A DNA stretch of 19,902 nt, taken from positions 1-19,902 of the forward strand of contig JAQGJF010000883.1 of the NCBI GenBank assembly GCA_028290765.1, written 5' to 3'. Below, in pieces: positions 1,891 to 17,113 of this stretch (its first letter is position 1; the number at the start of each line of letters is the position of its first letter). The notes under the pieces are model-generated. The model had not been told where the DNA came from and made no database searches. It saw nothing but the letters and a program-made list of their open reading frames with translations. This DNA comes from Tardiphaga sp. (GTDB taxonomy: Bacteria > Pseudomonadota > Alphaproteobacteria > Rhizobiales > Xanthobacteraceae). The translations under genes were made by a program, and so were the position numbers.

Positions 1891-2922
1891 TCAGAAGCTT
1901 AGCTGAACCTTCATGGATCGACTGCGATCTCCCGCGATCTCGAAGGCGTGCATGGCCTCGTCCAGTCCAAAGATACCCGTCAGCAGCGGCGTCAGATCCA
2001 CTCGCCTCTGGCCGATGAGATCGACGGCCAGGCCGAACTCCTCGTGGAAACGAAAGGTCCCGCGCATTTCAATCTCCTTGGCGACAACCATGTTCTGCGG
2101 GATCGAGACATCGCCGCCGAGGCCGAGCTGAACCAGGATGCCACGCGGCCTGAGCACCTCGAGTCCCGAGCGAACCGCCCGCTCGTTGCCGGATGCTTCG
2201 AAATGAACATCGAAATAGCCCTTGTTGGCTGAATAGGCGCCGAGCTGATCGGGTTCATCCGCGACGTTGATGGTTCGATCGGCGCCGATCCGCAGTGCCT
2301 TCTCGAGAACCGCGGCCATGACATCGGTCGCGATAATTTCCCGGGCACCATGCAGACGCGCAGCCATGATCGTCAACGCGCCGATCGGACCGCATCCCGT
2401 CACCAGAACCCGTTTGCCCAGCAGGGATCCGGCACGGCTGACGGCATGCAGGACGACCGCGAAGGGCTCCGCAAAGGCGGCTTCGTTGATGGAGACGCCG
2501 TCGGCGACCTTGTGGCATTGCCAGGCTTCGGCGACGAGACGCTGGCGAAACGCGCCCTGGATGTGCGGCATCGGCATCGCGCTGCCGTAAAAGCGCATGT
2601 TCAGGCACTGGTTCTGCTGGCCTTTGAGGCAGTATTCGCAGGCATTGCAAGGCCGGCTCGGCGAAACCGCGACGCGGTCGCCGATGGCGAGCCCGGATAC
2701 GGCCGTACCAAGCGCCTGGATGGTTCCAGCGACTTCGTGACCGAGGATCATGGGCTCGCGCACCCGCACCGTGCCGAAGCCGCCATGGTTGAAATAGTGC
2801 AGATCGGATCCGCAGATGCCGCCGGCCTCGATCGCGACCTCGACCTGGCCCGCGCCGGGCATCTCGGCTTCGCGCTCCTCGACCCGAAGATCGCGGGCAG
2901 CATGAATGACGATAGCTTTCAT
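1891..2922 (-). CDS. Zinc-dependent alcohol dehydrogenase, L-idonate 5-dehydrogenase-like
   Basis: A 343-residue medium-chain dehydrogenase. Catalytic zinc ligands are Cys37 in GGICGSD and the GHE at 61-63. Structural zinc cysteines are at 92, 95, 98 and 106. The NAD(P)-binding GCGPIG lies at 176-181. The family oxidises secondary alcohols of polyols and sugar acids, and the closest resemblance I see is L-idonate 5-dehydrogenase (L-idonate to 5-ketogluconate). The true substrate may differ. The start at 2922 is chosen over an ATG ten codons upstream because GGAG sits eight bases before it and the conserved N-terminus begins there. It is the last gene of the hyu-led operon, about 60 bases after the gluconate-dehydrogenase-like SDR. 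No kinase or permease of the Escherichia coli idn pathway is nearby, so the idonate label is tentative. Confidence 0.88.
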   Translation of the reverse strand: MKAIVIHAARDLRVEEREAEMPGAGQVEVAIEAGGICGSDLHYFNHGGFGTVRVREPMILGHEVAGTIQALGTAVSGLAIGDRVAVSPSRPCNACEYCLKGQQNQCLNMRFYGSAMPMPHIQGAFRQRLVAEAWQCHKVADGVSINEAAFAEPFAVVLHAVSRAGSLLGKRVLVTGCGPIGALTIMAARLHGAREIIATDVMAAVLEKALRIGADRTINVADEPDQLGAYSANKGYFDVHFEASGNERAVRSGLEVLRPRGILVQLGLGGDVSIPQNMVVAKEIEMRGTFRFHEEFGLAVDLIGQRRVDLTPLLTGIFGLDEAMHAFEIAGDRSRSMKVQLSF

Positions 2923-2982
2923 GGTTGCACTCCGGCGCTTCATTTCATGCAATTCGACCGAGCAGCTTGCAGCGGCACGAAC

Positions 2983-3750
2983 TCAGAGACAGGTGGTGAT
3001 CCCGCCATCGACATAGAGCGTATGGCCGTTGACGAAGGACGAGGCCTTGCCGGAGAGGAACACCGCCGCCCCGACCAGCTCCTCGACATTACCCCAGCGG
3101 GCGGCCGGTGTCCGCTTTTCGAGCCAGCTCGAAAATTGCGGATCATCGACCAGGGCCTGGTTCAGCGGGGTCTTGAAGTAGCCCGGGGCGATGGCGTTGA
3201 TCTGGAGGCCGTGTTTGGCCCAATCGGCGCACATGCCGCGGGTCAGGTTCTTCACCGCACCCTTGGTGGCCGTGTAGGGGGCGATGCCCGGGCGGGCGAG
3301 CTCGCTCTGCACCGACGCGATGTTGATGATCTTGCCCCGCCGGCGCGGGATCATGTGGCGCGCGACGGCCTGGCCGACATAGAACGTGCTTGAAATATTG
3401 GTGGCGAGCAGTTGCTCCCATTTCTCGATCGGAAAATCCTCGAGCGGCGCGCGGAACTGCATGCCGGCATTGTTGATCAGGATATCGATCGCACCGACGT
3501 TTCGCTCGATCGCCGCCACGCCTTCGCTGGCAGCTTGCGCGACGGTGACGTCGAAGCCGGCCACCGATACCTTGTGCCCGGCCGCCACCAATTTGGCCGC
3601 GGCCACATCAAGCTTGCCGGCGTCGCGCCCGTTGAGGACGACCTCGGCGCCGTGCTCGGCCAGGCCCTGTGCGAGCGCGAACCCGATGCCTTGCGAAGAG
3701 CCGGTGACCAGCGCCCTCTTGCCGGTCAGTTCGAACAGTTCAAATGCCAT
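2983..3750 (-). CDS. SDR oxidoreductase, gluconate 5-dehydrogenase-like
   Basis: A 255-residue classical short-chain dehydrogenase. It shows the Rossmann motif TGSSQGIG (16-23), NNAG (93-96), the catalytic Ser146, Tyr159 and Lys163 (YTATK), and the usual C-terminal NGHTLYVDGG. The RTPAARWG and ELVGAAVFL segments are typical of the gluconate 5-dehydrogenase branch, which interconverts D-gluconate and 5-ketogluconate with NAD(P)H. Together with the idonate-dehydrogenase-like gene just downstream it forms an IdnD/IdnO-like pair that could epimerise a hydroxyl through a keto intermediate. The start at 3750 is 34 bases after the aldolase stop codon and matches the family N-terminus; an ATG 33 codons earlier would lie inside the aldolase gene. 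The exact substrate is unknown. Confidence 0.88.
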   Translation of the reverse strand: MAFELFELTGKRALVTGSSQGIGFALAQGLAEHGAEVVLNGRDAGKLDVAAAKLVAAGHKVSVAGFDVTVAQAASEGVAAIERNVGAIDILINNAGMQFRAPLEDFPIEKWEQLLATNISSTFYVGQAVARHMIPRRRGKIINIASVQSELARPGIAPYTATKGAVKNLTRGMCADWAKHGLQINAIAPGYFKTPLNQALVDDPQFSSWLEKRTPAARWGNVEELVGAAVFLSGKASSFVNGHTLYVDGGITTCL

Positions 3751-3784: not shown

Positions 3785-4486
3785 TCATCGCCCCAGCGAC
3801 TTCTTGATACCGTCCAATCCGAGGCGGAGGAAGGGGTCGGAATGGACATAGAAGAATTGCACGCCCTTTTCGAGCCAATACGGCAACTCGTTGGCCGTCA
3901 CCAGCGTCCCGGCGACCTTGCCCGCGGCGCGAATCTTGTCGACGATAAAGCCGACCTTGTCGATGACGGCTTGCGGCCGAGGCTGGCCGAATGGCGGTGC
4001 CGGCGGATATCCCATATTTTGCGACAAGTCGCCGGGCCCGATGAAAAACACGTCGATCCCCTCAACCGCGAGCAGTTCGTCGATATCGTCGATGGCCTCC
4101 AGCGTCTCGATCATGGAGACGATCAGCCGCTTTTCGTGATCGGCCGGACAGGCGTAGCGAACCGCGTCGACAATGGCACGCGCCTCATCGGCGGTATCGA
4201 CCATCGGCACCATCAACCCATCCGCGCCGGCATTTAGATAGCGGATCAGCAGCGAACGCTGGTGCGAATCCGGCCGAACAATCGCGGCTCCGCCGGCCCC
4301 GCGAATGAGCTGCGCGGTGATACGCACGTCCTCGAAACTCCACGAGCCGTGCTCGCAATCGACGAAAATCGAGTCCGCCCCAAGTTCCACCAGCCGAACC
4401 GAGAGGCCGGGTGACACGTGGTGGGGATTGAACATGGTGATCGCTTCGCCCTTCGACAGGCGCTCGCGCAGCTTCGCTCCATTCAT
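3785..4486 (-). CDS. HpcH/HpaI family class II aldolase
   Basis: A 233-residue aldolase of the family that includes 4-hydroxy-2-oxoheptanedioate aldolase, 2-keto-3-deoxy-L-rhamnonate aldolase and 2-dehydro-3-deoxyglucarate aldolase. These enzymes split 2-keto-4-hydroxy acids into pyruvate and an aldehyde with a divalent metal. Visible signatures are DCEHG with the catalytic His46, Arg71 for the keto-acid, and metal ligands Glu127 (MIETLEA) and Asp153 (GPGDLS). It is slightly shorter than the usual 250-267 residues. The start at 4486 has a GGAAGGA seven bases upstream and lies 16 bases after the stop of the preceding SDR. In this operon it is the likely carbon-carbon cleaving step. No sugar-acid dehydratase, which normally makes its substrate, is encoded in the window. 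Confidence 0.9.
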   Translation of the reverse strand: MNGAKLRERLSKGEAITMFNPHHVSPGLSVRLVELGADSIFVDCEHGSWSFEDVRITAQLIRGAGGAAIVRPDSHQRSLLIRYLNAGADGLMVPMVDTADEARAIVDAVRYACPADHEKRLIVSMIETLEAIDDIDELLAVEGIDVFFIGPGDLSQNMGYPPAPPFGQPRPQAVIDKVGFIVDKIRAAGKVAGTLVTANELPYWLEKGVQFFYVHSDPFLRLGLDGIKKSLGR

Positions 4487-4502: not shown

Positions 4503-5309
4503 CTATTTCTTTGACTTGTCGGGGGTATCGTCCGGCGCGCCCACCCAGCGAGCAGTCTCGATATCGGCCGACGTATCACGCATGAAAGTCGGGCAAATCT
4601 GCAGCTCGGGAATCATCGCACCCTTTTGCAGGCTGGCGCAGAGCAGCACCGCCCGGGCCACATCATGCGGATCGAGCATGACCGCGCGTTCGCTTTCCAG
4701 CGGCTGGCGGGCACGATTGTCCATGATCGGCGTGTTGGTCTCGCCGGGCAGGATCGTCGTCGCGCGGATGCCCTGGTTGCGGTACGTATTGTGCAGGAAG
4801 GTCATGAAGTTCTTCACCCCCGCCTTCGCCGCGCCATAGGCGGCGCCGCCCAGCAGATTCGGATTAAGCGCCGCCAGCGACGAGACGGTAATGATCGTGC
4901 CCTCGCCCTTGGCGATCATGCCGGGCAGGACTGTCTGGGTGAGGTTGAATACAGCGGTGAGATTGACGTTCACCGTGGCGTTCCATTCCTCCTCGCCGAT
5001 GAAACGGGCGTTCAAGACCTTGCTGGCGCTGCCGGCATTGTTCAGCAGAATGTCGATCACGCCGACATTGGTGCCGACCCAGGCAACCGCATCGCGGATC
5101 GCTGCGCGAGACTCGATGTCGAGGGATCGGCTGACCGCCTTGCCGCCTTGTTTTTTGATCTCCGCCGCGACGTCTTCGAGCGGTTCGATGCGGCGGCCGG
5201 TGAGAACGACAGTCGCTCCTTCCCGCGCCAGCAGGATGGCAGATTCCCGACCGATGCCGGTTCCTGCGCCGGTGACGAGTGCTACTTTCCCATCGATCAG
5301 ACCCATCAT
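4503..5309 (-). CDS. SDR family NAD(P)-dependent oxidoreductase
   Basis: A 268-residue short-chain dehydrogenase (267 if the second of two adjacent ATGs is used). Motifs are TGAGTGIG (13-20), NNAG (90-93), Ser143 or Ser144, and the catalytic Tyr158 and Lys162 (YGAAK). The C-terminal part departs from the common sugar-type SDRs and ends in a charged DTPDKSKK tail. The AGGAG ribosome binding site overlaps the stop codon of hyuB, so translation of the two is probably coupled. It is not a close duplicate of the other SDR in this operon: the substrate loops and C-termini differ clearly. It probably oxidises or reduces an intermediate made by the HyuAB enzyme. The substrate cannot be named. Confidence 0.87.
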   Translation of the reverse strand: MMGLIDGKVALVTGAGTGIGRESAILLAREGATVVLTGRRIEPLEDVAAEIKKQGGKAVSRSLDIESRAAIRDAVAWVGTNVGVIDILLNNAGSASKVLNARFIGEEEWNATVNVNLTAVFNLTQTVLPGMIAKGEGTIITVSSLAALNPNLLGGAAYGAAKAGVKNFMTFLHNTYRNQGIRATTILPGETNTPIMDNRARQPLESERAVMLDPHDVARAVLLCASLQKGAMIPELQICPTFMRDTSADIETARWVGAPDDTPDKSKK

Positions 5310-5314
5310 TTCTC

Positions 5315-6991
5315 CTATTCGGCGGCCGCTGGCGTCGAGCGAGTGTAGCGATAAATCTCCTCAGCCGCCTCAGGAGTGATCAGTCCCTCGGCGAGATCGA
5401 GTTCGACCAGTTCGCCACTGCGCTCAGATGTTCTGCCCCACCCGCCGCCGCCGGGTGTCTCGACTTCCAGCCGCTCGCCGGTCTTGAGCACGACCTTGCC
5501 TTTCGGAAATTGCGGCTGGCCATTCTTATGCACTTTGCCGGCGCTGCCGGACCGGCCCTCCACAACGCCAAAGCAGGGATGCCGTACCCGCTCCGAGGCA
5601 AGATAGATGCTCATCGGGCGCTTGCCGAGGTTGCGCAGGATGACGCGCTGACCGAGCCCACCGCGATATTTTCCGGCGCCGCCCGAGTCCGCAATCAGTT
5701 CCTTGCACTCGGTCAGAACGGGTACCGCGATCTCGAACATCTCGATCGCCGTCACCTTGCAGTTGGACGGGAAGCTCAGCGTGTCGAGACCGTCGATCTC
5801 CGAACGCCCGCCCTGCCCGCCATGGAAGTTCTGAACCGAGCCGTACTGCGTGCCATCGTCGCGTTGTCCGACGCAATTGGCCGCCCATATTGGCGCGCCG
5901 CCGCTGTCGCCCATGACCTTTTCGGGAACAACGCCCTCAAGCGCCTTGAAAATGAGCGAGGGAATGACGTGACCGATCAGGTTACGCGAATTGCCCGCCG
6001 TCCACTGGTTCGGATTGAGGATCGAACCCTCCGGCGCCTCGTCGGTGATCGGGGTGATGCAGCCCTCGTTGTTCGGCGTGTCCGGGTCCAGCAGGCATTT
6101 CAGAGCGTAGACCGAATGGGCGTAACGGTAATTGGTCCGGCAATTGATCGAGTGCAGCACCTGGTCCGAAGAGCCGGCATAGTCCACGTGAATGGAATCG
6201 TCCCGCACGATCACCGCCGCCTTCAGCTTCACGTCGGTATCGTAGCCGTCGAGCAGCACTTCGGCGGAATATGTGCCGTTCGGCCATTGGCGGATCGCTT
6301 TGCGGGTCTGCGCTTCCGAGCGCGAATGGATGGCATCGGCAAGCTCATCGATCTCGTCGAGGTCGTATTCATCGAGGAACTTCAGCAGTTCCCGCCCCAT
6401 GACGTTGTTCGCCGCGACCATCGACTCGAGGTCCCCGAGCACTTCGGTCGGCAGGCGCACGGAGGCTGCGATGATGTCGAGTACGTCCTGGTTGGGAACG
6501 CCAGCCTTGTGCAGCTTGACGATCGGGAAGCGAATGCCTTCCTCGAAAATGTCGCTTGCTTCCGAATGGAGAGGCCTTCCGCCGACATCGGGCAGATGGG
6601 CGATCGAGCCGGCGTAGGCGACAACCTTGCCCTTCTTGAAGATCGGCGTGACCATGGTGACATCGGGCAGATGGCCCGTGCCGATTTCGGGGTCGTTGGT
6701 GGCGAGCACATCGCCCTCCGCAAGAGTTTCGGCCGGAAACTTCGGCAGGAAATATTTCTGCGCCGCGACCGGCAGCGAGGTAATGAACACCGGTATCGAC
6801 CACGTGCACTGGGCAAGCGCCCTGCCGCGGCTGTCCAGCAACACGGTCACATAATCGTGGTTCTCGCGCACGATCGGCGAAAAGGCCGTTCGCCCGAGAA
6901 CATTGTCGGCCTGATCGGCGATAAAGATCAGGCGATTCCACATCACCTGGAGATTGATCGGATCATTGAAATCGAGGGCGTTGTTCGGCAT
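5315..6991 (-). CDS. Hydantoinase B/oxoprolinase family protein (HyuB subunit)
   Basis: A 558-residue subunit of the HyuB family, which works with HyuA as an ATP-dependent amidohydrolase or carboxylase: N-methylhydantoinase, 5-oxoprolinase, and the related acetone and acetophenone carboxylases. The N-terminal block with IADQADNVLGRTAFSPIVRE and the C-terminal glycine-rich ETPGGGGWG are hallmarks, and the length fits the family (about 520-600). The gene starts 12 bases after the hyuA stop codon; a GAGGA ribosome binding site overlaps that stop, so the two subunits are probably made together. The reaction here is unknown. No carbamoylase or cyclic hydantoinase is encoded nearby, so a classical hydantoin pathway is not supported. 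Confidence 0.93.
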   Translation of the reverse strand: MPNNALDFNDPINLQVMWNRLIFIADQADNVLGRTAFSPIVRENHDYVTVLLDSRGRALAQCTWSIPVFITSLPVAAQKYFLPKFPAETLAEGDVLATNDPEIGTGHLPDVTMVTPIFKKGKVVAYAGSIAHLPDVGGRPLHSEASDIFEEGIRFPIVKLHKAGVPNQDVLDIIAASVRLPTEVLGDLESMVAANNVMGRELLKFLDEYDLDEIDELADAIHSRSEAQTRKAIRQWPNGTYSAEVLLDGYDTDVKLKAAVIVRDDSIHVDYAGSSDQVLHSINCRTNYRYAHSVYALKCLLDPDTPNNEGCITPITDEAPEGSILNPNQWTAGNSRNLIGHVIPSLIFKALEGVVPEKVMGDSGGAPIWAANCVGQRDDGTQYGSVQNFHGGQGGRSEIDGLDTLSFPSNCKVTAIEMFEIAVPVLTECKELIADSGGAGKYRGGLGQRVILRNLGKRPMSIYLASERVRHPCFGVVEGRSGSAGKVHKNGQPQFPKGKVVLKTGERLEVETPGGGGWGRTSERSGELVELDLAEGLITPEAAEEIYRYTRSTPAAAE

Positions 6992-7003: not shown

Positions 7004-9067
7004 TCAGCGAATGTTGATCACGAGATTGCCGTGCCCGTCGACATGAGCGGTGCCGCTCGGGCCGACGACGGCCGTCGACTCGCGCTGTTCGACGATGGCC
7101 GGGCCCCTCACCGGCTGATCGACCGGCAGCTTGTAATGATCGTAGACCGGCGTTTCCGCGGTGGCGCCCAACTCGCTGAAATAGACAGATCGCCTGCCCT
7201 TGAGGGCGTCGGCGACCTCCGCTTGATGCGGGCGGGTGACCTTGTCCTTGCCGCCGCTGGAGCGCAGCCTCCACGTGATGACCTCGACGGAAGCCGATAC
7301 AGTACGGCCGAACAGCTCGCGGTAGAGCTTGGTGAAATTATCCAGGAGCTGCCGGAGAAATCTGTCCGTCGGGAGACTGCGATCGGGCAACTCGACCGTA
7401 ATCTCGTGGCCCTGCCCGACATAGCGCATGTCGACGGTGTAACGGTTGGTGATCGCCTCCCTGGCGACGCCGGCGGCGCTGACGACCTCGGCCCCTTGGG
7501 TGGCCAGTTCGTCGAGCAGCCGGAGCATCTGGTCGAAATCCCAATTGTCCATGCCCATCGGAAAGCTGGCGGACAGATCCACCGCGACAGGCGCAATAAG
7601 GAGCCCGATCGCCGAGGTGACCCCGGCGCCGGCCGGACAGATGATGCGCTTGATGCCGAGCGTGCGGGCGATCCCGTAGGCGTGGACCGGACCGGCCCCG
7701 CCGAAAGCCACCATCGGCAGGGAACGGGGATCGACGCCAAGATCGGTCGCATGCATGGCCGCAGCCTTGCTCATGGATTCGTTGACGAGGTCGTGGATGC
7801 CCCAGGCGCAGCGTTCGACGCTGACGTTAAGCGAGTTGGCGAGCCTGGACATCGCTTCCTGAGCCGCATCTTTCGAGACCTTGAACGAGCCGCCGACAAA
7901 GGATTCGACCCCCATATAGCCGAGCAGGATGTCGGCGTCGGTGACGGTCGGCTCGGTGCCGCCGCGCTGGTAGGCCGCCGGCCCCGGAAGCGCGCCTGCC
8001 GAGCGCGGGCCGACATCGAGCAGGCCGAGCGGGTTCTTCACCGCGATGGACCCGCCGCCCGCACCAATCTCGATCATCTGGATCGATTGGATCTTGAGCG
8101 GGAAGCCGGAGCCTTTGCGGAAGCGCTGGTAGTGCGCCACTTCGAGATCGGTGCCGACGGTTGGCTCGCCATTCGGGATGAGGCAGAGCTTGGCCGTGGT
8201 GCCCCCCATGTCGAACGACAATACGCTCGCCTCGCCGGCAATCCTGCCGAACTCGGCAGCCGCAACTGCGCCGGCAGCCGGACCCGATTCAATCAGACGG
8301 ACCGGCAGTTCGGCGGCGCGGCGGCTCGGAACGAGGCCACCGGACGACGTCATCCACAGCACCTGCTGGGCAATACCCTTGCCGGCGAATTCGCGCTGCA
8401 GGTGGTCGACATGCCCGGCCATCTGCGGCCGGGTATAGGCATTGACGACGGTCGTCGAGGCGCGATCGAACTCGCGCACTTCCGGACAGACTTCCGAAGA
8501 AAGCGAAACAAAGATGTCGGGGCTCTCTTCCCGCAGCAGTGCGGCAATGCGCTGCTCATGCGCCGGGTATTTGTAAGCATGCAACAAGCAGACGGCGACG
8601 GATTTGATGCCCTTGCTGCGCAGCCGTCCAGCGATCTCGCGGATGGTGTCTTCCTTCAACTCAGCGATCACGGCGCCGTCGGCTGTGATGCGTTCCTCGG
8701 CGCCGAAACTGTTGGCACGCGTGACCAGCGGATCGGGATATCTGAGGTTCAGGTCATAGAGGTCGTAACGGCCCTCGTTGCGGATGCGCAGCATGTCCTG
8801 GAAGCCGGCGGTCGAGATAAAGCCGGTTTCCACGCCCTTGCGTTCGAGAACGGCGTTGGTCACGACGGTCGTGGCGCCAAGCACCTGGAGCTTTGCGAGG
8901 TCGATAGCGCTGCCAAACCGGTCGAGCAGCTCGGTCGCGCCCTGGACCACAGCCTCGGCTGGATTGCTCGGCGTGCTCAATACCTTGTGCAGATGCAATT
9001 CACCGTCGTCATCAAGAAGCGCAAAATCGGTAAAGGTGCCCCCGGTATCGAATGCGAGCTTGGCCAT
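7004..9067 (-). CDS. Hydantoinase/oxoprolinase family protein (HyuA subunit)
   Basis: A 687-residue ATP-binding subunit of the HyuA family. The actin-like ATPase phosphate loops are visible as DTGGTFTD (7-14) and DMGGTTAK (286-293). ESGPAAGA (260-267) and a later GGAGPVHAYG are also conserved. The family phosphorylates an amide or ketone oxygen so that a ring or C-N bond can be opened, or a carboxyl group added, together with HyuB. The start at 9067 has a GAGGAAA five bases upstream and begins directly with the conserved first strand. An in-frame codon 33 residues earlier is rejected because that stretch shows no family similarity. It is the first gene of the downstream operon and is preceded by the shared 41-bp block at 9207-9247. 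Confidence 0.94.
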   Translation of the reverse strand: MAKLAFDTGGTFTDFALLDDDGELHLHKVLSTPSNPAEAVVQGATELLDRFGSAIDLAKLQVLGATTVVTNAVLERKGVETGFISTAGFQDMLRIRNEGRYDLYDLNLRYPDPLVTRANSFGAEERITADGAVIAELKEDTIREIAGRLRSKGIKSVAVCLLHAYKYPAHEQRIAALLREESPDIFVSLSSEVCPEVREFDRASTTVVNAYTRPQMAGHVDHLQREFAGKGIAQQVLWMTSSGGLVPSRRAAELPVRLIESGPAAGAVAAAEFGRIAGEASVLSFDMGGTTAKLCLIPNGEPTVGTDLEVAHYQRFRKGSGFPLKIQSIQMIEIGAGGGSIAVKNPLGLLDVGPRSAGALPGPAAYQRGGTEPTVTDADILLGYMGVESFVGGSFKVSKDAAQEAMSRLANSLNVSVERCAWGIHDLVNESMSKAAAMHATDLGVDPRSLPMVAFGGAGPVHAYGIARTLGIKRIICPAGAGVTSAIGLLIAPVAVDLSASFPMGMDNWDFDQMLRLLDELATQGAEVVSAAGVAREAITNRYTVDMRYVGQGHEITVELPDRSLPTDRFLRQLLDNFTKLYRELFGRTVSASVEVITWRLRSSGGKDKVTRPHQAEVADALKGRRSVYFSELGATAETPVYDHYKLPVDQPVRGPAIVEQRESTAVVGPSGTAHVDGHGNLVINIR

Positions 9068-9301
9068 TGTTTCCTCGAAGCGGGCAGTTTTGCAGACAGC
9101 GCAGGAACGTTCCGGACGAGCCCGACGGGGTCGTTCATAATCGAGTCCGGACGGCCGGAATCCCACGGTATCGTTTGAAGGTTAGGGGATGCAGCCGACA
9201 CCAGCCAACACAAGTGCGGTCTGCCGCTATAGACTTTACTTATGGCGCGGCCGGCTCGGACGCTTCTCGTTCCGGACACCGGCGAGCGCCATCATGGGAA
9301 G
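9068..9301 (-). promoter_or_regulatory. Promoter region of the hyuA-led operon
   Basis: This is 234 bases between the lysR stop and hyuA. It contains block copy A (9207-9247). On the minus strand a TTGTGT at 9212-9207 lies 24-29 bases downstream of the centre of the T-N11-A core. That would suit a -35 box with the regulator centred near -59, as in many LysR-activated promoters. I see no convincing -10 box. I see no terminator for lysR, so some readthrough from the upstream operon is possible. Confidence 0.5.
9207..9247 (-). promoter_or_regulatory. Putative LysR-type operator, copy A (shared 41-bp block)
   Basis: This block is identical at 36 of 41 positions to copy B (16341-16381). Invariant parts on the plus strand are AACACAA, TGC, TCTGCCGCTATAG and TTTACTTATGGCG. 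The core ATA (9229-9231), nine bases, TAT (9241-9243) is a LysR-type T-N11-A box. It ends 139 bases upstream of the hyuA start codon. That the LysR protein encoded next to it binds here is inferred. Confidence 0.65.
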
Positions 9302-10240
9302 CTAGGCTTTCCGAATTCCTTGCGGGTGCTTGCGCATGAGTTTCTCGACAACGTCGAGAAGCACCGATCGGACCGCCAGTGCGGGTTCCGACAATGGAAG
9401 ATGATCCGACGTGCAAAGCGAGACCGTGGCCTCGATCACGGGGCGGGCCAGACGCCTGATATCGGCTCCGGCAAAACTCGAGGCGCCGGCGGCGACGGAA
9501 GCAGGAAGTATCGTCGAACCAAGGCCGTCCATGACGGCCGCGCCGAGCGACGAAACCGACTCGATTTCGTAGACGACGTTGGGCACGACACGCGCCCGGG
9601 ACAAGGATTCGTCGATCAGACGGCGCAGGAAATGGCCCCTGCTCGGCAAGAGAAGCGGCACATCGGCAAGCGCCGAAAGCGGCAGCGATTCTGTCGATGG
9701 TTTGTCGAATACGGTACCCGGGGGCGACACCAAGAACAGTTCTTCTCGGAACAAGGGTTGCAGCGTAACCCCCTTGATCGGTTCAGAGCCATAGATGATG
9801 GCCATGTCCATCTTGCCCGTCATGATCAGCTCGCTCAACACGTGACCAAAGCTGTCGTTGATATGGACGATGATCTGGGGATGAAGCGCTTTCATCTCCT
9901 TCAGGATCGGCAGCGACAGCGCACTCGACGTCGAATAGGTCGCAAGGCCGATCGAGACGCGTCCGGCCACCGATTTTGAAGATTTATCGATGTCGGTCTT
10001 TGCCTGCTCGATCTGTTTCAGCAGCAACTGGGCGTGTCGATACAGAACGAGGCCGGCCTCGGTTGGCGTAATGCCGTGATTGCTGCGCGTCAGCAGTTTG
10101 TGCTTGAAATGGCTCTCGAGTGCTGCGATCTGCTGGGACAGCGCGGGCTGAGCGGTACGCAGAATGCTGGCGGCGCGCGATACGCTGCCGGCGTCGACGA
10201 TCTTCACGAAACTCTTCAGTTTTCTGAAATCAACGCTCAT
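9302..10240 (-). CDS. LysR family transcriptional regulator
   Basis: A 312-residue LysR-type regulator. Residues about 4-63 form the winged helix-turn-helix (FRKLKSFVKIVDAGSVSRAAS, then a QPALSQQIAALE recognition helix), followed by a linker helix and a periplasmic-binding-protein-like effector domain to the C-terminus. LysR proteins are usually tetrameric activators that respond to a pathway substrate or intermediate. The gene lies at the end of the importer operon and directly before the hyu operon promoter, all in the same direction rather than divergent. It is the only transcription regulator of the island and the natural candidate to read the 41-bp blocks at 9207-9247 and 16341-16381. 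The start at 10240 fits the family N-terminus; its ribosome binding site is weak. An extension of 19 codons upstream is not supported by similarity. Confidence 0.93.
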   Translation of the reverse strand: MSVDFRKLKSFVKIVDAGSVSRAASILRTAQPALSQQIAALESHFKHKLLTRSNHGITPTEAGLVLYRHAQLLLKQIEQAKTDIDKSSKSVAGRVSIGLATYSTSSALSLPILKEMKALHPQIIVHINDSFGHVLSELIMTGKMDMAIIYGSEPIKGVTLQPLFREELFLVSPPGTVFDKPSTESLPLSALADVPLLLPSRGHFLRRLIDESLSRARVVPNVVYEIESVSSLGAAVMDGLGSTILPASVAAGASSFAGADIRRLARPVIEATVSLCTSDHLPLSEPALAVRSVLLDVVEKLMRKHPQGIRKA

Positions 10241-10312
10241 GGTTCGCCGTTTCGCCGAATGATCCGAAAGACTAGGGCGGTCACGGCAAGAGAACAAGGC
10301 GCTCCAGCAATT

Positions 10313-11521
10313 TCAACGCAGATCGGAGCAAGCCTTTTCGATGCGGTCGCACGCCTCCCTGATCGTTTCCATCGATGTTGCGATCGACAGCCGGAAATAA
10401 GGAGAAAGCCCATAGGCCGCCCCATGCACGGAGGCGACCCCGCCCTTGTCCAACAGATAGAGAACGAAGTCGAGATCGCTGTCGATCGTCTTGCCATCCG
10501 GGGTGATCTTGCCGATCGCGCCCGCGCAGTTCGGATAGAGATAGAACGCACCGTCCGGCACGAGGCAGGACAGCTGGGGCACTTTGTTCAGGCGAGCGCA
10601 GGCGTAGTCGCGGCGCTCCCGGTAGACCTTGACGCTTTCCGCGACGAAAGCCTGATCGCTTGCAAGCGCATGCGCTGCAGCGGCCTGGCTGATCGACGAC
10701 GGACAGGAGGACATCTGCGACTGCAGCTTGTTGATGGCCGCGATCAGCCCGGCCGGACCGGCCGCATAGCCGATACGCCAGCCCGTCATGGCGTAGGATT
10801 TCGACACACCATTGGCGAGAAGGATGCGGTCCTTCAACGAAGGTACCACTGCCGCAAGCGTCGTCATCGGCTCGTCGCGAAACCAGATCTGATCGTAGAT
10901 TTCGTCGGACAGCACCATGACATGCGGATGGCGAATCAGCACTTCGCCCAGCTCCTCGAGTTCAGCCTGGGCATAGGCTGCGCCGGTCGGGTTCGAGGGC
11001 GTATTCAGGATCACCCATCGCGTCCGCGGCGTGATGGCGGCCTCCAACGCCGCCGGAGTCAGCTTGAAACCAACATTGTGGGAACACGCGACGATGACGG
11101 GCTTGCCGTCATTGGCGATGACCATATCGGGATAGGACACCCAGTACGGTGCGGGAATGATGACTTCCGCCCCCTCCTCAACGCTTGCCATCAATGCCAG
11201 GAAAAGGATCTGCTTGGCGCCGCCACCGACACCAATTTCGTTATCCGCGTATTCGAGTCCGAGCCGGCGCTTGAAATCCGCGAGGATCGCCTGGCGCAGC
11301 GCCGGCGTTCCGTTGACGGCTGTATACTTCGTTTCGCCTCTGTCGATCGCCGTATGGGCAGCCGCCTTGACGTGGTCAGGAGTGTCGAAATCCGGCTCGC
11401 CGATCGTCATATCGACGATGTCATGGCCGGCGGCCTTCAACTCGCGAACGCGGGCGGCGGCCGCGGTGGTCGGAGAAATCTTGATGCGCGATACGCGCGC
11501 GGCGGGTACGAAGACGGTCAC
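10313..11521 (-). CDS. Class I pyridoxal-phosphate aminotransferase (aspartate aminotransferase-like)
   Basis: A 402-residue fold-type I transaminase. Features are IGEPDFDTP near the N-terminus, NPSNPTG-like NTPSNPTG (173-180), Asp206 and Tyr209 contacting the cofactor, the PLP-binding Lys241 in GVSKSYAMTGWRIGY, and a late arginine in YFRLS for the substrate carboxylate. It moves an amino group between an amino acid and a keto acid in the cytosol. The family covers aspartate, aromatic and other amino acids, so the substrate is open. It starts with GTG at 11521; AAGGA lies about eight bases upstream. It follows the importer genes after a 66-base gap that holds a hairpin. In this setting it probably removes or supplies the amino group of the imported compound rather than serving general metabolism. 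Confidence 0.92.
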   Translation of the reverse strand: MTVFVPAARVSRIKISPTTAAAARVRELKAAGHDIVDMTIGEPDFDTPDHVKAAAHTAIDRGETKYTAVNGTPALRQAILADFKRRLGLEYADNEIGVGGGAKQILFLALMASVEEGAEVIIPAPYWVSYPDMVIANDGKPVIVACSHNVGFKLTPAALEAAITPRTRWVILNTPSNPTGAAYAQAELEELGEVLIRHPHVMVLSDEIYDQIWFRDEPMTTLAAVVPSLKDRILLANGVSKSYAMTGWRIGYAAGPAGLIAAINKLQSQMSSCPSSISQAAAAHALASDQAFVAESVKVYRERRDYACARLNKVPQLSCLVPDGAFYLYPNCAGAIGKITPDGKTIDSDLDFVLYLLDKGGVASVHGAAYGLSPYFRLSIATSMETIREACDRIEKACSDLR

Positions 11522-11558
11522 TTTATATTCCTTTGAACTGCGAAAGGTGTCGTATTCG

Positions 11559-11585
11559 ATCGCCGCGACGCGCGAACGCGGCGAT
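11559..11585. other. Hairpin between livF and the aminotransferase gene
   Basis: ATCGCCGCG (11559-11567) pairs perfectly with CGCGGCGAT (11577-11585) around a nine-base loop, just after the livF stop. No T tract follows on the minus strand, so it is more likely an RNA-stability or partial attenuation element than a full terminator. Confidence 0.45.
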
Positions 11586-11587
11586 GA

Positions 11588-12343
11588 TCAGTGTTCCGCC
11601 TGGGTCTCGCCCCGCATCCGGCCGGTCAGGAAGAGCTCGCCGAGTTCGTCGTGGGTGATGTCCGCGGGCCTGCCGTCCCAGATCACCTTGCCGAGACGCA
11701 GGATCACCGCGCGATGCGCCACCTCCATTGCCTTCTTGGTGTTCTGCTCGACAAGCAGGATGGTTTGACCGCCGGCATTGATGCGCAGAAGCTCGTCGAA
11801 GACGATTCCGATCGCCGCGGGAGACAGGCCGACCGAGGGCTCGTCGACGAGCAGAATCTTCGGCCGCTGCAGGACGGCCATCGCGACTTCGAGCAATTGC
11901 TGCTCGCCGCCGGACATGTTGCCCGCGAGCGTGTTGCGACGCGCCTTCAGGATCGGAAACAGGTCATAGACATAGTCCCGGTCGGCCTTCACCCTGGCAT
12001 CGCGGAGCGTATAGGCGGCCATCTGGAGATTTTCGTCGATCGTCATGACCGGAAAGTTGCAGCGGCCCTGCGGCACGAAGGAGATGCCTTCGGCCAGGAT
12101 AGAACGCGACTTGTAGCCGGCGATATTCCTGCCCTGCCAGTCGATGCTGCCGCCCTTGATCGTCGTCATCCCGTAAAGCGACTTCAGGAGCGTTGACTTG
12201 CCCGCGCCGTTTGGCCCCAACAGGGCGACAAACTGTCCCTGCGGCACCTCGAGATCGACACCGTTCAGGATGTCGAGAGAGCCGTAGCCGGCGCGCAGAC
12301 CTTTGATCGAGAGACTTTTGATCGAAAGATTTGGATCAACCAC
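11588..12343 (-). CDS. livF: ABC transporter ATP-binding protein, LivF type
   Basis: A 251-residue ATPase of the branched-chain-amino-acid-type (HAAT) importer family. It has Walker A GPNGAGKST (43-51), signature MSGGEQQ (143-149) and Walker B ILLVDEP (163-169), with the LivF-like PQGRCNFPVMTIDENL segment between. The GTG at 12343 is chosen as start: GGGAGG lies nine bases upstream and it overlaps the livG stop by eight bases, which indicates translational coupling. A longer ATG-initiated reading would run inside livG and has no family similarity. With LivG it powers the permease pair. The symbol gives the subunit type only; substrates of these importers range from branched-chain amino acids to amides, urea, aromatic acids and other small molecules. 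Confidence 0.9.
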   Translation of the reverse strand: MVDPNLSIKSLSIKGLRAGYGSLDILNGVDLEVPQGQFVALLGPNGAGKSTLLKSLYGMTTIKGGSIDWQGRNIAGYKSRSILAEGISFVPQGRCNFPVMTIDENLQMAAYTLRDARVKADRDYVYDLFPILKARRNTLAGNMSGGEQQLLEVAMAVLQRPKILLVDEPSVGLSPAAIGIVFDELLRINAGGQTILLVEQNTKKAMEVAHRAVILRLGKVIWDGRPADITHDELGELFLTGRMRGETQAEH

Positions 12344-13106
12344 CGAGATAGGCCTCCCGCACCGCCTGGTTATGAACGATTTCGTCGGGTGTCCCTTCGG
12401 CCAGTTTGCGCCCCTGATCGAGCACGACGATGCGCTCGCAGATGTCGGTGACGACATCGATATTGTGCTCGATCACCAGAAAGCTGACGCCGAATTTTTC
12501 GTTGGCGAAGCGGATGCTCTCGACCACGCGCTCGATCAGCTTGGGATTGATGCCGGCCATCGGCTCGTCGAGCAGGATGAGCTTGGGCTCCGGCATCAGC
12601 ATGGACGCGAACTGGATGAGCTTCTGCTGGCCACCCGACAGTTTCCCCGCCGGCTGGTGACGCACATCCCAAAGTCCGGCGATCTTGATCAGCTCGCGCG
12701 CGCGTTCCCTCAACGCCTCGACACGATCCCGCGCCGTGGCTCCGATCCCGAACGTGGACCAGAGGCCTGGAAAGGTGAACATCTGGCCGGCAATGACGAG
12801 GTTCTCCTCGACATCAAGGGCATTGAACACCACGGTCTTCTGGAAGGAGCGCAGCATGCGGCCCTCGCGGGCGATGCGATTGAGCGTCCACCCGGTAATG
12901 TCCTGACCGTCGAGTTTGACCGTGCCGGCGTCCGGCTTGGTCAGGCCGGACGCGCAGTCGAAAAAGGTCGACTTGCCCGATCCATTCGGACCGATGAGCC
13001 CGCAGATCTCGCCGCGATTGACCTGCAGATGGACATTGTCGACCGCGCGGACCGCGCCGTAGGATTTGTTCAACCCGGAAATTTCAAGAATGGGCAGACC
13101 GGTCAT
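12336..13106 (-). CDS. livG: ABC transporter ATP-binding protein, LivG type
   Basis: A 256-residue ATPase with Walker A GPNGSGKST (39-47), signature LSGGQQ (156-161), Walker B LILLDEP (176-182) and the LivG-typical MAGINPKLIERV and IEHNIDVV segments, ending in an EAYLGG tail. The start ATG at 13106 overlaps the livM stop as ATGA, and AAGGAG precedes it. It belongs to the five-gene importer with the binding protein, LivH, LivM and LivF. It acts on the cytosolic face of the inner membrane. Confidence 0.93.
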   Translation of the reverse strand: MTGLPILEISGLNKSYGAVRAVDNVHLQVNRGEICGLIGPNGSGKSTFFDCASGLTKPDAGTVKLDGQDITGWTLNRIAREGRMLRSFQKTVVFNALDVEENLVIAGQMFTFPGLWSTFGIGATARDRVEALRERARELIKIAGLWDVRHQPAGKLSGGQQKLIQFASMLMPEPKLILLDEPMAGINPKLIERVVESIRFANEKFGVSFLVIEHNIDVVTDICERIVVLDQGRKLAEGTPDEIVHNQAVREAYLGG

Positions 13107-14089
13107 TTCCGCTCCTTGAGAAAAGACCAGAAGCGATCGATGAGCGGCGCGAACCCCTTCGGGAACCAGAACACCAGCGCCAGCAGGCAGAGCCCGTACG
13201 CGATCATTCGAACCTCGGGCGCGACGCGAAGAGCCTCGGAGAGCCCGACGAACAGCAAACTGCCGAATACGACACCAGAAATCGTTCCAGCGCCGCCGCC
13301 GAGGACGATGATGAGCATCGTCGTCGAATAATACATCTGGAAAGTGAGCGGGCTGACCACCGTCAGGTAATGCGCATAAACGCTTCCGCCCAGGCCCGCG
13401 AAAGCGGCGCTGATCATGAACACCACCAGCTTGTAGCTCCAGGTCGGAATGCCGACGGATTCGGCCAGCGTCTCGTTCTCACGGATCGCAATCATGTTGC
13501 GCCCGGCCGCCGAGCGCACGATCAGATAGGCCGCGAGCGTGGCAATCGCGGCAATGACGAGCACCAGGTAATAGAAGCTCGTCGTTCCCGAGATTGTGAA
13601 TGATGCCGGCCCCAACGCGAAATACGGCTTGGGAATGCCCGACAGCCCCATGTCGCCTCTGGTGAGGTTGATCCAGTTCTTGGCGATGGCCTGCCCGATG
13701 ATGACGAAGCCAAGCGTGCACATCACGAAGGACGTGGCGCGCAGCCTGAGCGCCGGGATGCCGAGCGGCAGCGCAATCGCGCCGGCGACGACCCCGGCCG
13801 CAACGAGGTTCAGATAAAAGGGCGTGCCGAAATGCACAGCCATCAGTGCGGAAGTGTAGGCGCCAATGCCGAAGAACGCCGCCTGCGCCAGGGACAGCAG
13901 GCCAGTATAGCCGACAAGCAGATTGAGACCGTGGGCCGGCAAGAGAAAGATCAGCGCGATGATGATCGCGTGCAAGGCATAATTGCCGAGGAACAATGGG
14001 GCCAGACAGGCGGCTGCCGCGAGCACGACGCCGAACGGCAGCCGAAGATCGCGTCCGGGCGCCGGGAGTGAGAGATCGTTGGGTGACAT
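13103..14089 (-). CDS. livM: ABC transporter permease, LivM type
   Basis: A 328-residue inner-membrane permease with about ten hydrophobic segments and the family stretch GLNLLVGYTGLLSLAQAAFFGIGAY. The first 20 or so residues are hydrophilic. The ATG at 14089 is chosen because GAGGA precedes it and it lies 17 bases after the livH stop; a 478-codon open frame continues upstream through livH in the wrong frame and is not real. It ends by overlapping livG (ATGA). It forms the membrane channel together with LivH. Confidence 0.92.
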   Translation of the reverse strand: MSPNDLSLPAPGRDLRLPFGVVLAAAACLAPLFLGNYALHAIIIALIFLLPAHGLNLLVGYTGLLSLAQAAFFGIGAYTSALMAVHFGTPFYLNLVAAGVVAGAIALPLGIPALRLRATSFVMCTLGFVIIGQAIAKNWINLTRGDMGLSGIPKPYFALGPASFTISGTTSFYYLVLVIAAIATLAAYLIVRSAAGRNMIAIRENETLAESVGIPTWSYKLVVFMISAAFAGLGGSVYAHYLTVVSPLTFQMYYSTTMLIIVLGGGAGTISGVVFGSLLFVGLSEALRVAPEVRMIAYGLCLLALVFWFPKGFAPLIDRFWSFLKERK

Positions 14090-14106
14090 CGTCTGTCCTC
14101 GATCAA

Positions 14107-14979
14107 TCAGAAGCGGGCTTGCGCAGAGAAAAGGCCGTGGGGGCGCCACATCAATACGAGCATCAATGTCGCGAACCCGACGGTGTCGCGGAACTGCAGG
14201 CCGACATAGGTCGCCACCAGGCTTTCCGCGATGCCGAGGATCATCGCCGCGAAGAACGTGCCGCGGACATTGCCGAGTCCTCCCATGATGATGACCGGCA
14301 AGGTCTTGAAGGTGATGATTTCGCCCATCCCGCCGTAGACACTCACATTCACCGGCGCCGTCAGCACGCCAGACAACGCAGCCAGGCAGGCTCCGAGAAT
14401 GAACGTCCGAAGCGCGACCTGGGGCACGTCGATGCCGACAACCGCGCAACATTCGATGTTCTGCGACACCGCGCGCATGGCCTTGCCCATGCGGCTGTAG
14501 GTGACCATCAATTCCAGCCCGACGAAGACCAGAATGCACACGATGATGATCAAGACGCGCTGCTCTGCCAGCGTGAAGCCGAAGATTGAAACTGGCTCGA
14601 TGTAGCCGCCGGAGAAAAATTTATAGCCGCCGCCGAAGACGAGAATCACGGTGTTCTGCAGGACCAGCGCGATGCCGAGCGTCGCCAGCACTCCGGTTTC
14701 CGGCGGCGCGCCCACGATGCGTTGCATCACGAACCTTCCGACGACGACGGCAATGACCGCGGTTGCCGCCACGCCAATCACGATGGCAACGGGATACGGC
14801 AGTTCCAGATATTCGATCGCAAACCAGGCACCAAAGGTGCCCAGCATGTAGTATTCGCCATGCGCGAAATTGATGGCGCGCAGAACACCGAAGATCATCG
14901 TCATTCCAACGGCGACGATGGCGTAGACGGAGCCGGAAACGATGCCGTTGACGATCTGCTCGAAGATCGCGGACAACAT
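14107..14979 (-). CDS. livH: ABC transporter permease, LivH type
   Basis: A 290-residue hydrophobic permease of the HAAT family. The N-terminal NGIVSGSVYAIVAVGMTMIFGVLRAINFAHGE block is the LivH hallmark (shown here in short form: GMTMIFGVLRAINFAHGE). It has about eight membrane segments. The ATG at 14979 follows the binding-protein stop by 22 bases; a GAGAGGGG stretch serves as ribosome binding site. It pairs with LivM. It is the second gene of the importer operon. Confidence 0.92.
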   Translation of the reverse strand: MLSAIFEQIVNGIVSGSVYAIVAVGMTMIFGVLRAINFAHGEYYMLGTFGAWFAIEYLELPYPVAIVIGVAATAVIAVVVGRFVMQRIVGAPPETGVLATLGIALVLQNTVILVFGGGYKFFSGGYIEPVSIFGFTLAEQRVLIIIVCILVFVGLELMVTYSRMGKAMRAVSQNIECCAVVGIDVPQVALRTFILGACLAALSGVLTAPVNVSVYGGMGEIITFKTLPVIIMGGLGNVRGTFFAAMILGIAESLVATYVGLQFRDTVGFATLMLVLMWRPHGLFSAQARF

Positions 14980-15001
14980 TTCGGTTACCCCTCTCTCGCG
15001 T

Positions 15002-16183
15002 TCACTTGGCGGGATACTTGATTTCGGCTGAGTAGGCTCCCTTGATGGCCGGCTTGCCGTTCTCGATTTGAAGCAGGATCATTGGCAGGCGGGCCTGATT
15101 GTGATCGTCGAAGGTCACCTCGCCCATGGCGCTGTCATACTTGATCTTGGACAGGGCGTCGCGAACCTTGGCACGGTCGGCGCTGCCGGCGGCCTCGATG
15201 GCCGTGGCCAGAAGATGAACCGTTTCCCAATGCACATAGGCGTGATTGTTGGGAGTCTCGCGATATTTGGCTTTGAACTTCTCCACGAAAGCGAGGCTCT
15301 TCGGAGAGTCCCATGCCGGCAGCCACGCAGCGGCCTCAACGGCTCCTTCGAGCGCCTTCGGCGCCGCCTTGATGGTGGTTTCCGTATTGAATTCCGCATT
15401 TCCGATCAGCGGTATCTTGCCGGCCAGGCCGACCTCGATCATTTGGCGCGCGATGATCGGCGTCGTGTCGGCAAGGCCGTACATGATGATGGCTTGCGCG
15501 CCGGAGTCGCGAATCTTGGCAAGCACGCTGCGAAAATCGACCTCTCCTTCCTTATAGTAGTCCTCCGTCAGGATCTCTCCCTTGAACCCGGGAAGATATT
15601 TCTTCGTGAATTCGATGGCCGCGCGCCCGTAGTCGGTATCGACGGAGAGAACTGCAAACTTCGTAAACCCTCTCTTCTCGGCGGCATATTGGATGACGAC
15701 GAGCGCGCGGTTCTCGTCGGTCGGATAGTTGCGGAAGGTCCATTTGAAACCGCCGACGCCCGCACCATAGGTAATCTTCGGATTGGACGAGGCGGCATTC
15801 AGGAGCAATACGCCGGCATCCTCGGCGACGGGCTGCATGGCGAGTGTCACCGAGCTCGATACGTCGCCAATGATGAAATCGGCTTTGTCCAGATCAATCA
15901 GCCGGCGAGTGGCTGAAACCCCTTCGACCGGCGTACCCTGGCTATCGCCCGAAATGACCGTAATCTTGCGGCCACCGATGCCACCGGCATTGTTGATTTC
16001 CTCGGCGGCCAGTTGGGCGCCGCGCAACGAGAAGGAACCGTATCGGGAATTAGGCCCGCTCATCGGAGCAACGATGCCGAGCCGGATCGCCCCGTCTTCG
16101 GCCCGGACATCGCTCGATGCCGCCCAAAGACCGATCAGGCCCATAGCGATACAGAATGCCCTGCGATCAAGTTTGTGCGTCAT
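15002..16183 (-). CDS. ABC transporter substrate-binding protein (Leu/Ile/Val-binding type)
   Basis: A 393-residue periplasmic binding protein of the Peripla_BP_6 type. Residues 1-28 form a signal peptide ending in DVRA; it carries a DRRAF sequence, so export by the Tat route is possible as well as Sec. The mature part starts AIRLGIVAPMSGP and includes RGAQLAAEEINNAGGIGG, typical of this family. The start at 16183 has GGAG eight bases upstream; open frame further upstream shows no similarity. It is the first gene of the importer operon and fixes the substrate specificity of the whole system. The ligand cannot be deduced from sequence alone; family ligands include branched-chain amino acids, amides, urea and aromatic acids. 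It is preceded by the shared block at 16341-16381. Confidence 0.93.
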   Translation of the reverse strand: MTHKLDRRAFCIAMGLIGLWAASSDVRAEDGAIRLGIVAPMSGPNSRYGSFSLRGAQLAAEEINNAGGIGGRKITVISGDSQGTPVEGVSATRRLIDLDKADFIIGDVSSSVTLAMQPVAEDAGVLLLNAASSNPKITYGAGVGGFKWTFRNYPTDENRALVVIQYAAEKRGFTKFAVLSVDTDYGRAAIEFTKKYLPGFKGEILTEDYYKEGEVDFRSVLAKIRDSGAQAIIMYGLADTTPIIARQMIEVGLAGKIPLIGNAEFNTETTIKAAPKALEGAVEAAAWLPAWDSPKSLAFVEKFKAKYRETPNNHAYVHWETVHLLATAIEAAGSADRAKVRDALSKIKYDSAMGEVTFDDHNQARLPMILLQIENGKPAIKGAYSAEIKYPAK

Positions 16184-16340
16184 GACCCAATCTCCATTTT
16201 CCGACTCCGGCCGCAGCCACACCGTCGCCGGCCGCTTTGGCGAGCGCGCGTATCGGGCGTTTTCCTGGCGTTCGTCTCGGCCAGATGAATTTTCTTCGGC
16301 TAATGACGATAAGAGTACGTTCCCGTGCCAAGCCGGGGGA

Positions 16341-16381
16341 AACACAACTGCAATCTGCCGCTATAGCGTTTACTTATGGCG
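16341..16381 (-). promoter_or_regulatory. Putative LysR-type operator, copy B (shared 41-bp block)
   Basis: This is the second copy of the 41-bp block. It differs from copy A (9207-9247) at only five positions, grouped in three places. The T-N11-A core is ATA (16363-16365), nine bases, TAT (16375-16377). It lies upstream of the importer operon in the same orientation as copy A and at a similar distance from the first start codon (157 against 139 bases). Confidence 0.65.
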
Positions 16382-16513
16382 AACGCGCAAAGCGGCGCCG
16401 GCCTCAAGACCAACCGGACCGCTCTGCCGGCCACGGGAACCGGGTTTTACTGGTTGAGGTCGTCGCGGGAGAGGCTGGCCACGATCGCAACCCTTCGTTA
16501 ACGACGCCGGTCT

Positions 16514-16521
16514 ATGGTTAA
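16514..16521 (-). promoter_or_regulatory. CtrA-like half-site upstream of the response regulator
   Basis: ATGGTTAA here is the exact reverse complement of the alphaproteobacterial CtrA half-site TTAACCAT. A second TTAA lies at 16498-16501, but the spacing of 16 bases is not that of a full TTAA-N7-TTAA site. It is about 46 bases before the response regulator start. An eight-base match can occur by chance. Confidence 0.35.
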
Positions 16522-16567
16522 CGCCGGGTATACCCCCTCCGTCGGTACGCGCGCTCAGAGCTGAACC

Positions 16568-17113
16568 ATGTATCGCATCGATTTCAACAAGCTGCGATTT
16601 CTCGTCTGCGACGACAATCCGCACATGCGCCGGATTTTGCGCACCCTGCTGCATTCGTTCGGCGCCCGCGAAGTCTATGAGAGCGAAGACGGCGCCACCG
16701 CGCTCGAAATGTACAGCCACTACGTGCCCGATATCGTCATCACCGACTGGTCGATGCCGATCTTCGACGGCCTCGAACTGGCCCAGATGATCCGGCAGCC
16801 GGACGCCAAGGGCAATCCCTACGCGCCGATCATCATGCTGACCGGCCATTCCGAAAAACGCCGGGTCACGCTCGCCCGCGACGCCGGCGTCACCGAATTC
16901 CTGGCCAAGCCGATTTCCGCCAAGGGGCTTTATCAGCGGGTCCTGAACGTGGTTGCCAGCCCGCGGCCGTTCATCAAGACCAAGAACTATTTCGGACCGG
17001 ACCGCCGCCGCAACAATACCACGACCTATATCGGCGAAGAGCGGCGCCTCGGCGGCGAAGTCGAAGTCATGCAGCAGCCTTCGCTGCTCGACAAGGCCCG
17101 CGTCGCCGGATAG
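16568..17113 (+). CDS. Single-domain CheY-like response regulator with PDRRR tail
   Basis: A 181-residue protein. Residues about 10-130 form one receiver domain with the acidic pair Asp15-Asp16, phospho-acceptor Asp60 (ITDWSMP), the switch Thr92 (LTGH) and Lys114 (AKP), so all residues needed for phosphorylation are present. There is no DNA-binding output domain. The C-terminal 50 residues carry FGPDRRR and EERR motifs and look disordered; similar tails occur in alphaproteobacterial receiver proteins, with unknown role. The ATG is the first possible start because a TGA lies in frame two codons upstream. The Hpt protein gene follows after 24 bases, so the pair probably forms a phosphorelay module. 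The kinase must be encoded elsewhere. Confidence 0.92.
   Translation: MYRIDFNKLRFLVCDDNPHMRRILRTLLHSFGAREVYESEDGATALEMYSHYVPDIVITDWSMPIFDGLELAQMIRQPDAKGNPYAPIIMLTGHSEKRRVTLARDAGVTEFLAKPISAKGLYQRVLNVVASPRPFIKTKNYFGPDRRRNNTTTYIGEERRLGGEVEVMQQPSLLDKARVAG

Follow-up and report, generated by a model that had tools for sequence, protein, structure and literature searches.

Which regulator governs a set of thirteen transport and catabolic genes in Tardiphaga sp., and through which DNA element, is the question raised by a stretch of 19,902 nucleotides (assembly GCA_028290765.1, contig JAQGJF010000883.1, positions 1 to 19,902; hereafter the window). All 13 genes lie on the minus strand, seven of them behind a 41-base block at 16341, with a gene for a LysR-type regulator last, and six behind a nearly identical block at 9207. 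It is highly likely, judging from sequence comparison, that both blocks serve as operators of the LysR protein encoded between them, which would switch both operons together; the cluster is thus very probably switched as a unit by this regulator. Control of this kind is well supported here yet ordinary among bacteria, and the most interesting point is the unusually conserved half of the operator predicted to serve in activation. The blocks, their parts and the regulator gene are as follows (columns are those of the block).

16341..16381, minus strand: predicted operator 1, 41 bp, before the binding-protein/transporter/aminotransferase/LysR operon; 36/41 against operator 2, present in 52/52 loci
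16360..16380, minus strand: predicted recognition dyad of operator 1, GCCATA-N9-TATAGC (contains ATA-N9-TAT, T-N11-A), columns 2-22
16341..16359, minus strand: predicted activation half of operator 1, GGCAGA..AGTTGTG, adjoining the -35 region, columns 23-41
16312..16317, minus strand: inferred -10 element TACTCT; TANNNT at columns 65-70 in 51/53 sites of its class
9207..9247, minus strand: predicted operator 2, 41 bp, before the hyuA operon; found by block match, present before hyuA in 52/52 loci
9226..9246, minus strand: predicted recognition dyad of operator 2, GCCATA-N9-TATAGC, columns 2-22
9207..9225, minus strand: predicted activation half of operator 2, columns 23-41
9179..9184, minus strand: inferred -10 element TAACCT; TANNNT at column 65 in 32/53 or 64 in 17/53 sites
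9302..10240, minus strand: LysR-type regulator, the proposed binding protein; NCBIfam NF008410 (NAC), Pfam HTH_1 and LysR_substrate

An earlier note on this DNA had reported that the blocks agree at 36 of 41 positions with differences in three small spots, that likeness ends at their borders, that both have the same orientation and contain ATA-N9-TAT (T-N11-A), that they stand 139 and 157 bases before the starts of hyuA and the binding-protein gene, and that a LysR gene lies between them. All of this held: direct alignment gave the same agreement, the flanks are unrelated, and the distances run to ATG codons at 9067 and 16183. The five differences fall at block positions 8, 12-13 and 27-28 (plus strand), and on the minus strand the blocks share CGCCATAAGTAAA..CTATAGCGGCAGA..GCA.TTGTGTT. 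They form the best ungapped pair of 41-mers on the plus strand of the whole window, compared with peaks of 28-30 matches of 41 in eight dinucleotide-preserving shuffles, and an independent repeat search recovered the same pair (family D5).

Relatives were collected by a contig search in which 28 aligned LysR sequences (27 homologs and that of the window) served as the query, and the best 80 of 128 confirmed loci were scanned. Fifty-two loci (L001-L049, L054, L056 and L080) were chosen because both blocks were visible; the gene order binding protein, LysR, hyuA, taken from proteins alone, selects the identical 52. In each of them, as in the window, a block precedes the binding-protein gene and another precedes hyuA; compared with four reference blocks, each agrees with the best at 32-41 of 41 positions. 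The window brings each class to 53 sites and the pooled set to 106. Mean conservation is 1.58 bits per column in the binding-protein class and 1.64 in the hyuA class. Over the 60 bases upstream the corresponding values are 0.12 and 0.14, and over the 80 bases downstream they are 0.50 and 0.45. Pooled columns with at least 90% of one base include ATAA (5-8), CTAT (16-19), GCGGCAGA (21-28) and most of AGTTGTG (33-39). Among 67 distinct blocks, columns 23-41 hold 1.53 bits each and columns 1-22 hold 1.47; the activation half is therefore at least as tightly conserved as the recognition half. Columns 25-26 (CA) and 38-39 (TG) are fixed at 99-100%, and this CA-N11-TG arrangement suggests an imperfect second dyad, centred 20 bases from the first. 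The classes also remain distinguishable: at column 10, 94% of hyuA sites have C, whereas G is the commonest base (49%) in the binding-protein class, which argues that the two operators are old and separate rather than a recent copy. Covariation of the dyad arms (columns 4 and 20) was tried as further evidence and is unclear, with 23 CG, 11 CA, 10 TA and 9 TG in the binding-protein class and 31 CG, 16 CA, 5 TG and 1 TA in the hyuA class. The base at column 20 is equal in both sites of a genome in 41/53 cases (Fisher p 0.0003, kinship ignored); this was not relied upon.

Downstream, the block keeps a nearly fixed register to a -10-like element. TANNNT occurs at column 65 in 51/53 binding-protein sites, and at column 65 (32/53) or 64 (17/53) in 49/53 hyuA sites together. 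If this is the -10 element, the transcription start would fall near column 77, which puts the dyad centre (column 12) near -65; relative to this inferred start, a T-N11-A dyad near -65 is found in both blocks. Two sources report LysR recognition sites around -65, with the activation sites close to the -35 box or overlapping it (PMC12016517, PMC4730206). Each block thus resembles a complete LysR-type operator, larger than a LysR box, with putative recognition and activation halves reaching the -35 region. The same placement bears on the idea that the block acts in RNA, as a leader element or riboswitch. Its distance of 139 and 157 bases from the start codons could be held to favour this, but a block upstream of the inferred -10 element would be untranscribed from that promoter, and no Rfam family reaches its gathering score in the window. 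On these two grounds an RNA role was rejected, and we regard it as highly improbable.

LysR tetramers are described as bound to a recognition site near -65 and to activation sites towards the -35 and -10 boxes, between which they are thought to shift on induction (PMC4730206). An activation half as strictly conserved as the recognition half might point to something else: a rigid 41-base operator in which two dyads (ATA-N9-TAT and the imperfect CA-N11-TG) stand in tandem at a spacing of about 20 bases, with the tetramer locked on both and working without the usual shift between activation sites. We offer this tentatively, as a proposal that is rather unlikely to hold. A close comparison is with BhbR1 of Pigmentiphaga kullae H8, also of the LysR type, which has an ATA-N9-TAT recognition site of the kind usually found near -65, a protected region from -22 to -75 and, overlapping the -35 box, a putative activation site. 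It differs in serving other catabolic genes, and the available part of its account holds no description of an activation half conserved across several bacterial families, as is the case here (PMC12016517).

If the block were a dispersed repeat or the remnant of a mobile element, copies would be expected at many unrelated places. A 35-base search pattern, ATAANNANNNNCTATRNCGGCAGANNNNASTYGTG, was scanned with up to three mismatches allowed, the reversed pattern serving as a backward control. Exactly two matches were found in 47 of 49 cluster-bearing genomes (three in G045, four in G033), and the backward control had none in the 49. In these 47 genomes the two operator sites are confined to the cluster neighbourhood, although much looser sites would escape such scans. 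In a sample of 248 genomes from the family of G001, which partly overlaps the genus samples below, 246 have no match, and the other two hold the cluster with two matches each (backward control, 5). The predicted dyad alone, at up to one mismatch in 24 cluster genomes, recovers 42 of 48 cluster sites and adds two others, with three in the control. What the earlier note had named as the sign of a dispersed repeat, a motif common at unrelated genes, thus did not arise, and the searchable motif that it had hoped for was obtained: a very specific operator pattern for a catabolic cluster. Near-identical copies twice in one window and single relict copies in some genomes are what could still be said for a repeat. 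Against this stand the 246 family genomes without a copy, the same promoter positions in 52 loci, and the nature of four single copies elsewhere, which appear to be relicts of the same promoter. The repeat reading was rejected, and its probability is practically negligible.

The single copies come from six genomes of the Bradyrhizobium and Rhizobium samples: four with promoter relicts and no cluster, G422 with a LysR relative, and G479. In G329, a stretch of up to 150 bases matches the binding-protein promoter of relatives at 76-86% identity, and the 16 kb fetched around it hold no cluster gene and only two LysR genes, at 27-29% identity. In G529, both cluster flanks as seen in relatives adjoin, with just the promoter between them; in G503, the promoter piece is next to the downstream flank of the cluster; and in G509, a piece of up to 100 bases lies beside an open reading frame (ORF) that resembles an IS30-type transposase by eye. 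All four are read as relicts of lost clusters. Each is the only remnant of the binding-protein promoter in a genome that lacks this LysR ortholog (L084:5580, L086:7089, L087:6558 and L088:6914, the last with the two flanks of the cluster beside it), and they look like natural deletion scars. All four relicts have at least one pattern mismatch, compared with 10 of 78 functional sites (Fisher p 0.0006), in a pattern that was itself built from functional sites.

The two sites go with the LysR gene. Among 195 Bradyrhizobium genomes, the 18 with a LysR ortholog (at least 83% identity) are the 18 with two sites, and two of the other 177 have one match each (backward control, 18). Among 148 Rhizobium genomes, the 21 with an ortholog (at least 72%) are the 21 with two sites, and four of the other 127 have one match each (backward control, 5). 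The association gives a Fisher p of about 1e-25 in each genus, with kinship ignored, and single matches at three mismatches are expected by chance, given 5, 18 and 5 control matches in the samples of 248, 195 and 148 genomes. Absence of the motif from both operons in relatives that keep the LysR gene would have told against the earlier note; it was present at both in 52/52 loci, 18/18 Bradyrhizobium and 21/21 Rhizobium genomes.

The blocks might nonetheless be read by another regulator whose gene lies elsewhere, such as a general nitrogen regulator, with the LysR protein as a passenger. A second LysR gene (45-48% identity) is indeed present in 16/21 ortholog-bearing Rhizobium and 2/18 ortholog-bearing Bradyrhizobium genomes, and cluster genes and sites are inherited together. 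However, more than two sites would be expected of a general regulator, and 47/49 genomes have exactly two; nor does the dyad alone reveal others, with two added matches in 24 genomes and three in the control. Where a genome has nothing closer than a relative of 45-54% identity (8 cases in Bradyrhizobium, 58 in Rhizobium), two sites are never found. Moreover, a related dyad lies beside distant LysR relatives in other gene settings, and we consider a foreign reader quite improbable.

These distant relatives form a set of 28 loci with LysR proteins at 50-67% identity, searched with the first 28 block columns. In 21/28, the best match to the dyad half lies next to the LysR gene or upstream of hyuA or of a gene for LysR, a binding protein or an aminotransferase, in zones that make up 7% of the sequence and were defined after an earlier look at motif hits (binomial p 5e-19, the loci not being independent). 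Gene order differs in L050, L052, L053 and L057, where the LysR gene stands before the binding-protein gene, and the motif is found there before binding-protein, hyuA or aminotransferase genes (weak in L057 and in the second copy of L053); the motif therefore follows promoters. Related dyads at such promoters, often weak and some in other gene orders, speak for the LysR protein as the reader. The stretch of the recognition helix around AQPALSQ is nearly unchanged among the translated LysR proteins (L076 and L077 not included). LysR binding and co-regulation, put forward in the earlier note as an inference, thus gain support from co-occurrence and from the dyads near distant relatives.

Several points weigh against LysR control through these blocks. 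There is no good -35 hexamer, TTG at column 40 being found in just 37/53 binding-protein and 34/53 hyuA sites. The whole cluster is co-inherited, so co-occurrence by itself cannot single out LysR among the cluster genes as the binding protein. The best match lies elsewhere in 7/28 distant loci (L061, L063, L066, L072, L074, L076 and L077), and 6/21 in-zone matches (L057, L068, L070, L073, L078 and L079) are no better than their own locus reversed. Relict decay was rejected as proof: in strains without the cluster, three of four relicts score 59.9-64.0, within the functional range of 47.8-70.5, so decay without LysR is unclear.

The protein itself has the helix-turn-helix and substrate-binding domains of its family (PF00126 and PF03466, above cut-off), and no solved structure is close to it (best E 8e-18). 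It also passes the NCBIfam NAC model NF008410, with 325.9 bits against a cut-off of 309, and the Rhizobium johnstonii pRL12 annotation (L083) names the regulator nac. Enterobacterial NAC is a nitrogen-status regulator without an inducer, with its own gene under sigma-54/NtrC control; it is a global regulator with many sites in its regulon. The LysR protein could bind the blocks in that manner, as a nitrogen-status regulator lacking an inducer, which is a variant of the control proposed here and overlaps with it. Besides the NAC model, the ATA-N9-TAT form of the site is shared with NAC of Klebsiella, whose position at promoters is similar to that of the present operators, and the cluster genes resemble nitrogen scavenging. 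In contrast to NAC, 47/49 genomes hold two sites, both in one cluster, which argues against a global nitrogen regulon, and the regulator gene sits inside an operon under its own proposed control. The nitrogen-status variant is possible, although we lean against it. The name NAC or nac in these bacteria may be misleading, as these comparisons suggest, and may hide a dedicated regulator.

For the control through a dedicated LysR protein, we infer binding, an operon behind each block, activation rather than repression, and a response to substrate. At two sigma-70-type promoters, one per operon, a LysR tetramer would occupy both the GCCATA-N9-TATGGC dyad, whose centre lies near -65, and the GGCAGA..AGTTGTG half next to it, which extends to the -35 region. 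The first promoter would serve the transporter, the aminotransferase and the LysR gene itself, which comes last behind operator 1 and would place the regulator inside its own feedback loop; the second would serve hyuAB, the dehydrogenases and the aldolase. The protein most probably acts as an activator, presumably in response to the transported substrate. A substrate-responsive unit had been proposed before: LysR-type operators at both operons are in keeping with it, and the proposal is refined in that nitrogen control, given the NAC name, is the alternative to induction by substrate. With regard to the signal, the NAC name favours nitrogen status and the local regulon favours the transported compound. 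The activation half has in effect been footprinted by conservation, and is thus open to test by simple mutations. A literature search found no account of this motif or regulon, with most subscription journals outside its coverage.

Nine of the 13 genes were assigned by Pfam and NCBIfam, and the other four, all transporter parts, by position and the R. johnstonii pRL12 annotation. Those other than the LysR gene are listed here.

15002..16183, minus strand: periplasmic binding protein of an amino-acid type ABC transporter; Pfam Peripla_BP_6
14107..14979, minus strand: ABC transporter permease 1; ORF, order kept in 52/52 loci, position and pRL12 annotation
13103..14089, minus strand: ABC transporter permease 2; ORF, start adjusted, pRL12 annotation
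12336..13106, minus strand: ABC transporter ATP-binding protein 1; conserved ORF, pRL12 annotation
11588..12340, minus strand: ABC transporter ATP-binding protein 2, start approximate; conserved ORF, pRL12 annotation
10313..11521, minus strand: aspartate-transaminase family aminotransferase (PRK06107); NCBIfam NF004769, 728.5 bits against a cut-off of 617
7004..9067, minus strand: hyuA, hydantoinase/oxoprolinase A; Pfam Hydantoinase_A
5315..6991, minus strand: hyuB, hydantoinase/oxoprolinase B; Pfam Hydantoinase_B
4503..5309, minus strand: short-chain dehydrogenase 1; domain search, kept in 52/52 loci
3785..4486, minus strand: HpcH/HpaI-family aldolase; domain search, kept in 52/52 loci
2983..3750, minus strand: short-chain dehydrogenase 2; match of >50% identity in 10/52 relatives' loci, some partial
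1891..2952, minus strand: zinc alcohol dehydrogenase, start codon uncertain; 79-84% identity in 5/52 relatives' loci

The earlier note had tied all 13 genes into one unit. All are on one strand behind the blocks, as this requires, but the conserved core comprises the first eleven only. The order of these eleven, from binding protein to aldolase, is complete in 49/52 loci, with only the aminotransferase gene missing from L016, L026 and L031; short-chain dehydrogenase 2 and the alcohol dehydrogenase are missing from most relatives' loci as fetched. The top NCBIfam match of the latter is L-idonate 5-dehydrogenase, under that model's cut-off. The transported substrate is probably an amide-ring or amino-acid-like nitrogen compound. 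The closest solved relatives of hyuA are N-methylhydantoinase and 5-oxoprolinase, and the binding protein is similar to amino-acid binders. Both hyuA and hyuB fall under the cut-offs of the NCBIfam caprolactamase models. Among soil bacteria, the cluster occurs in Bradyrhizobium, Rhizobium, Agrobacterium, Sinorhizobium, Microvirga, Bosea and others. A LysR gene is also found near hyuA/hyuB-like hydantoinase/oxoprolinase genes on the Ti plasmid pTiEU6, where, according to the authors of that account, it may control import and catabolism genes; that setting is opine catabolism, and it is likened to the present one by gene neighbourhood alone (PMC6733357).

A few extra sites remain. G033, a Microvirga genome, has two: one precedes a further copy of short-chain dehydrogenase 2 and the alcohol dehydrogenase (81% each), and the other is flanked by a LysR relative (44%) and an aminotransferase gene (48%). 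These sites, L081:4991 (minus strand) and L081:14866 (plus strand), may mark a sister regulon with a related motif. The additional match in G045 (L082, three mismatches, matrix score 9.5) and that in G479 (L089, three mismatches, before an ORF resembling a cytochrome by eye) were taken as chance. The match in G422, a Bradyrhizobium genome, is a weak motif copy (L085:3459) between a LysR relative and the aminotransferase gene (56% identity) from which it diverges; that gene is followed by an ORF that is RraA-like by eye.

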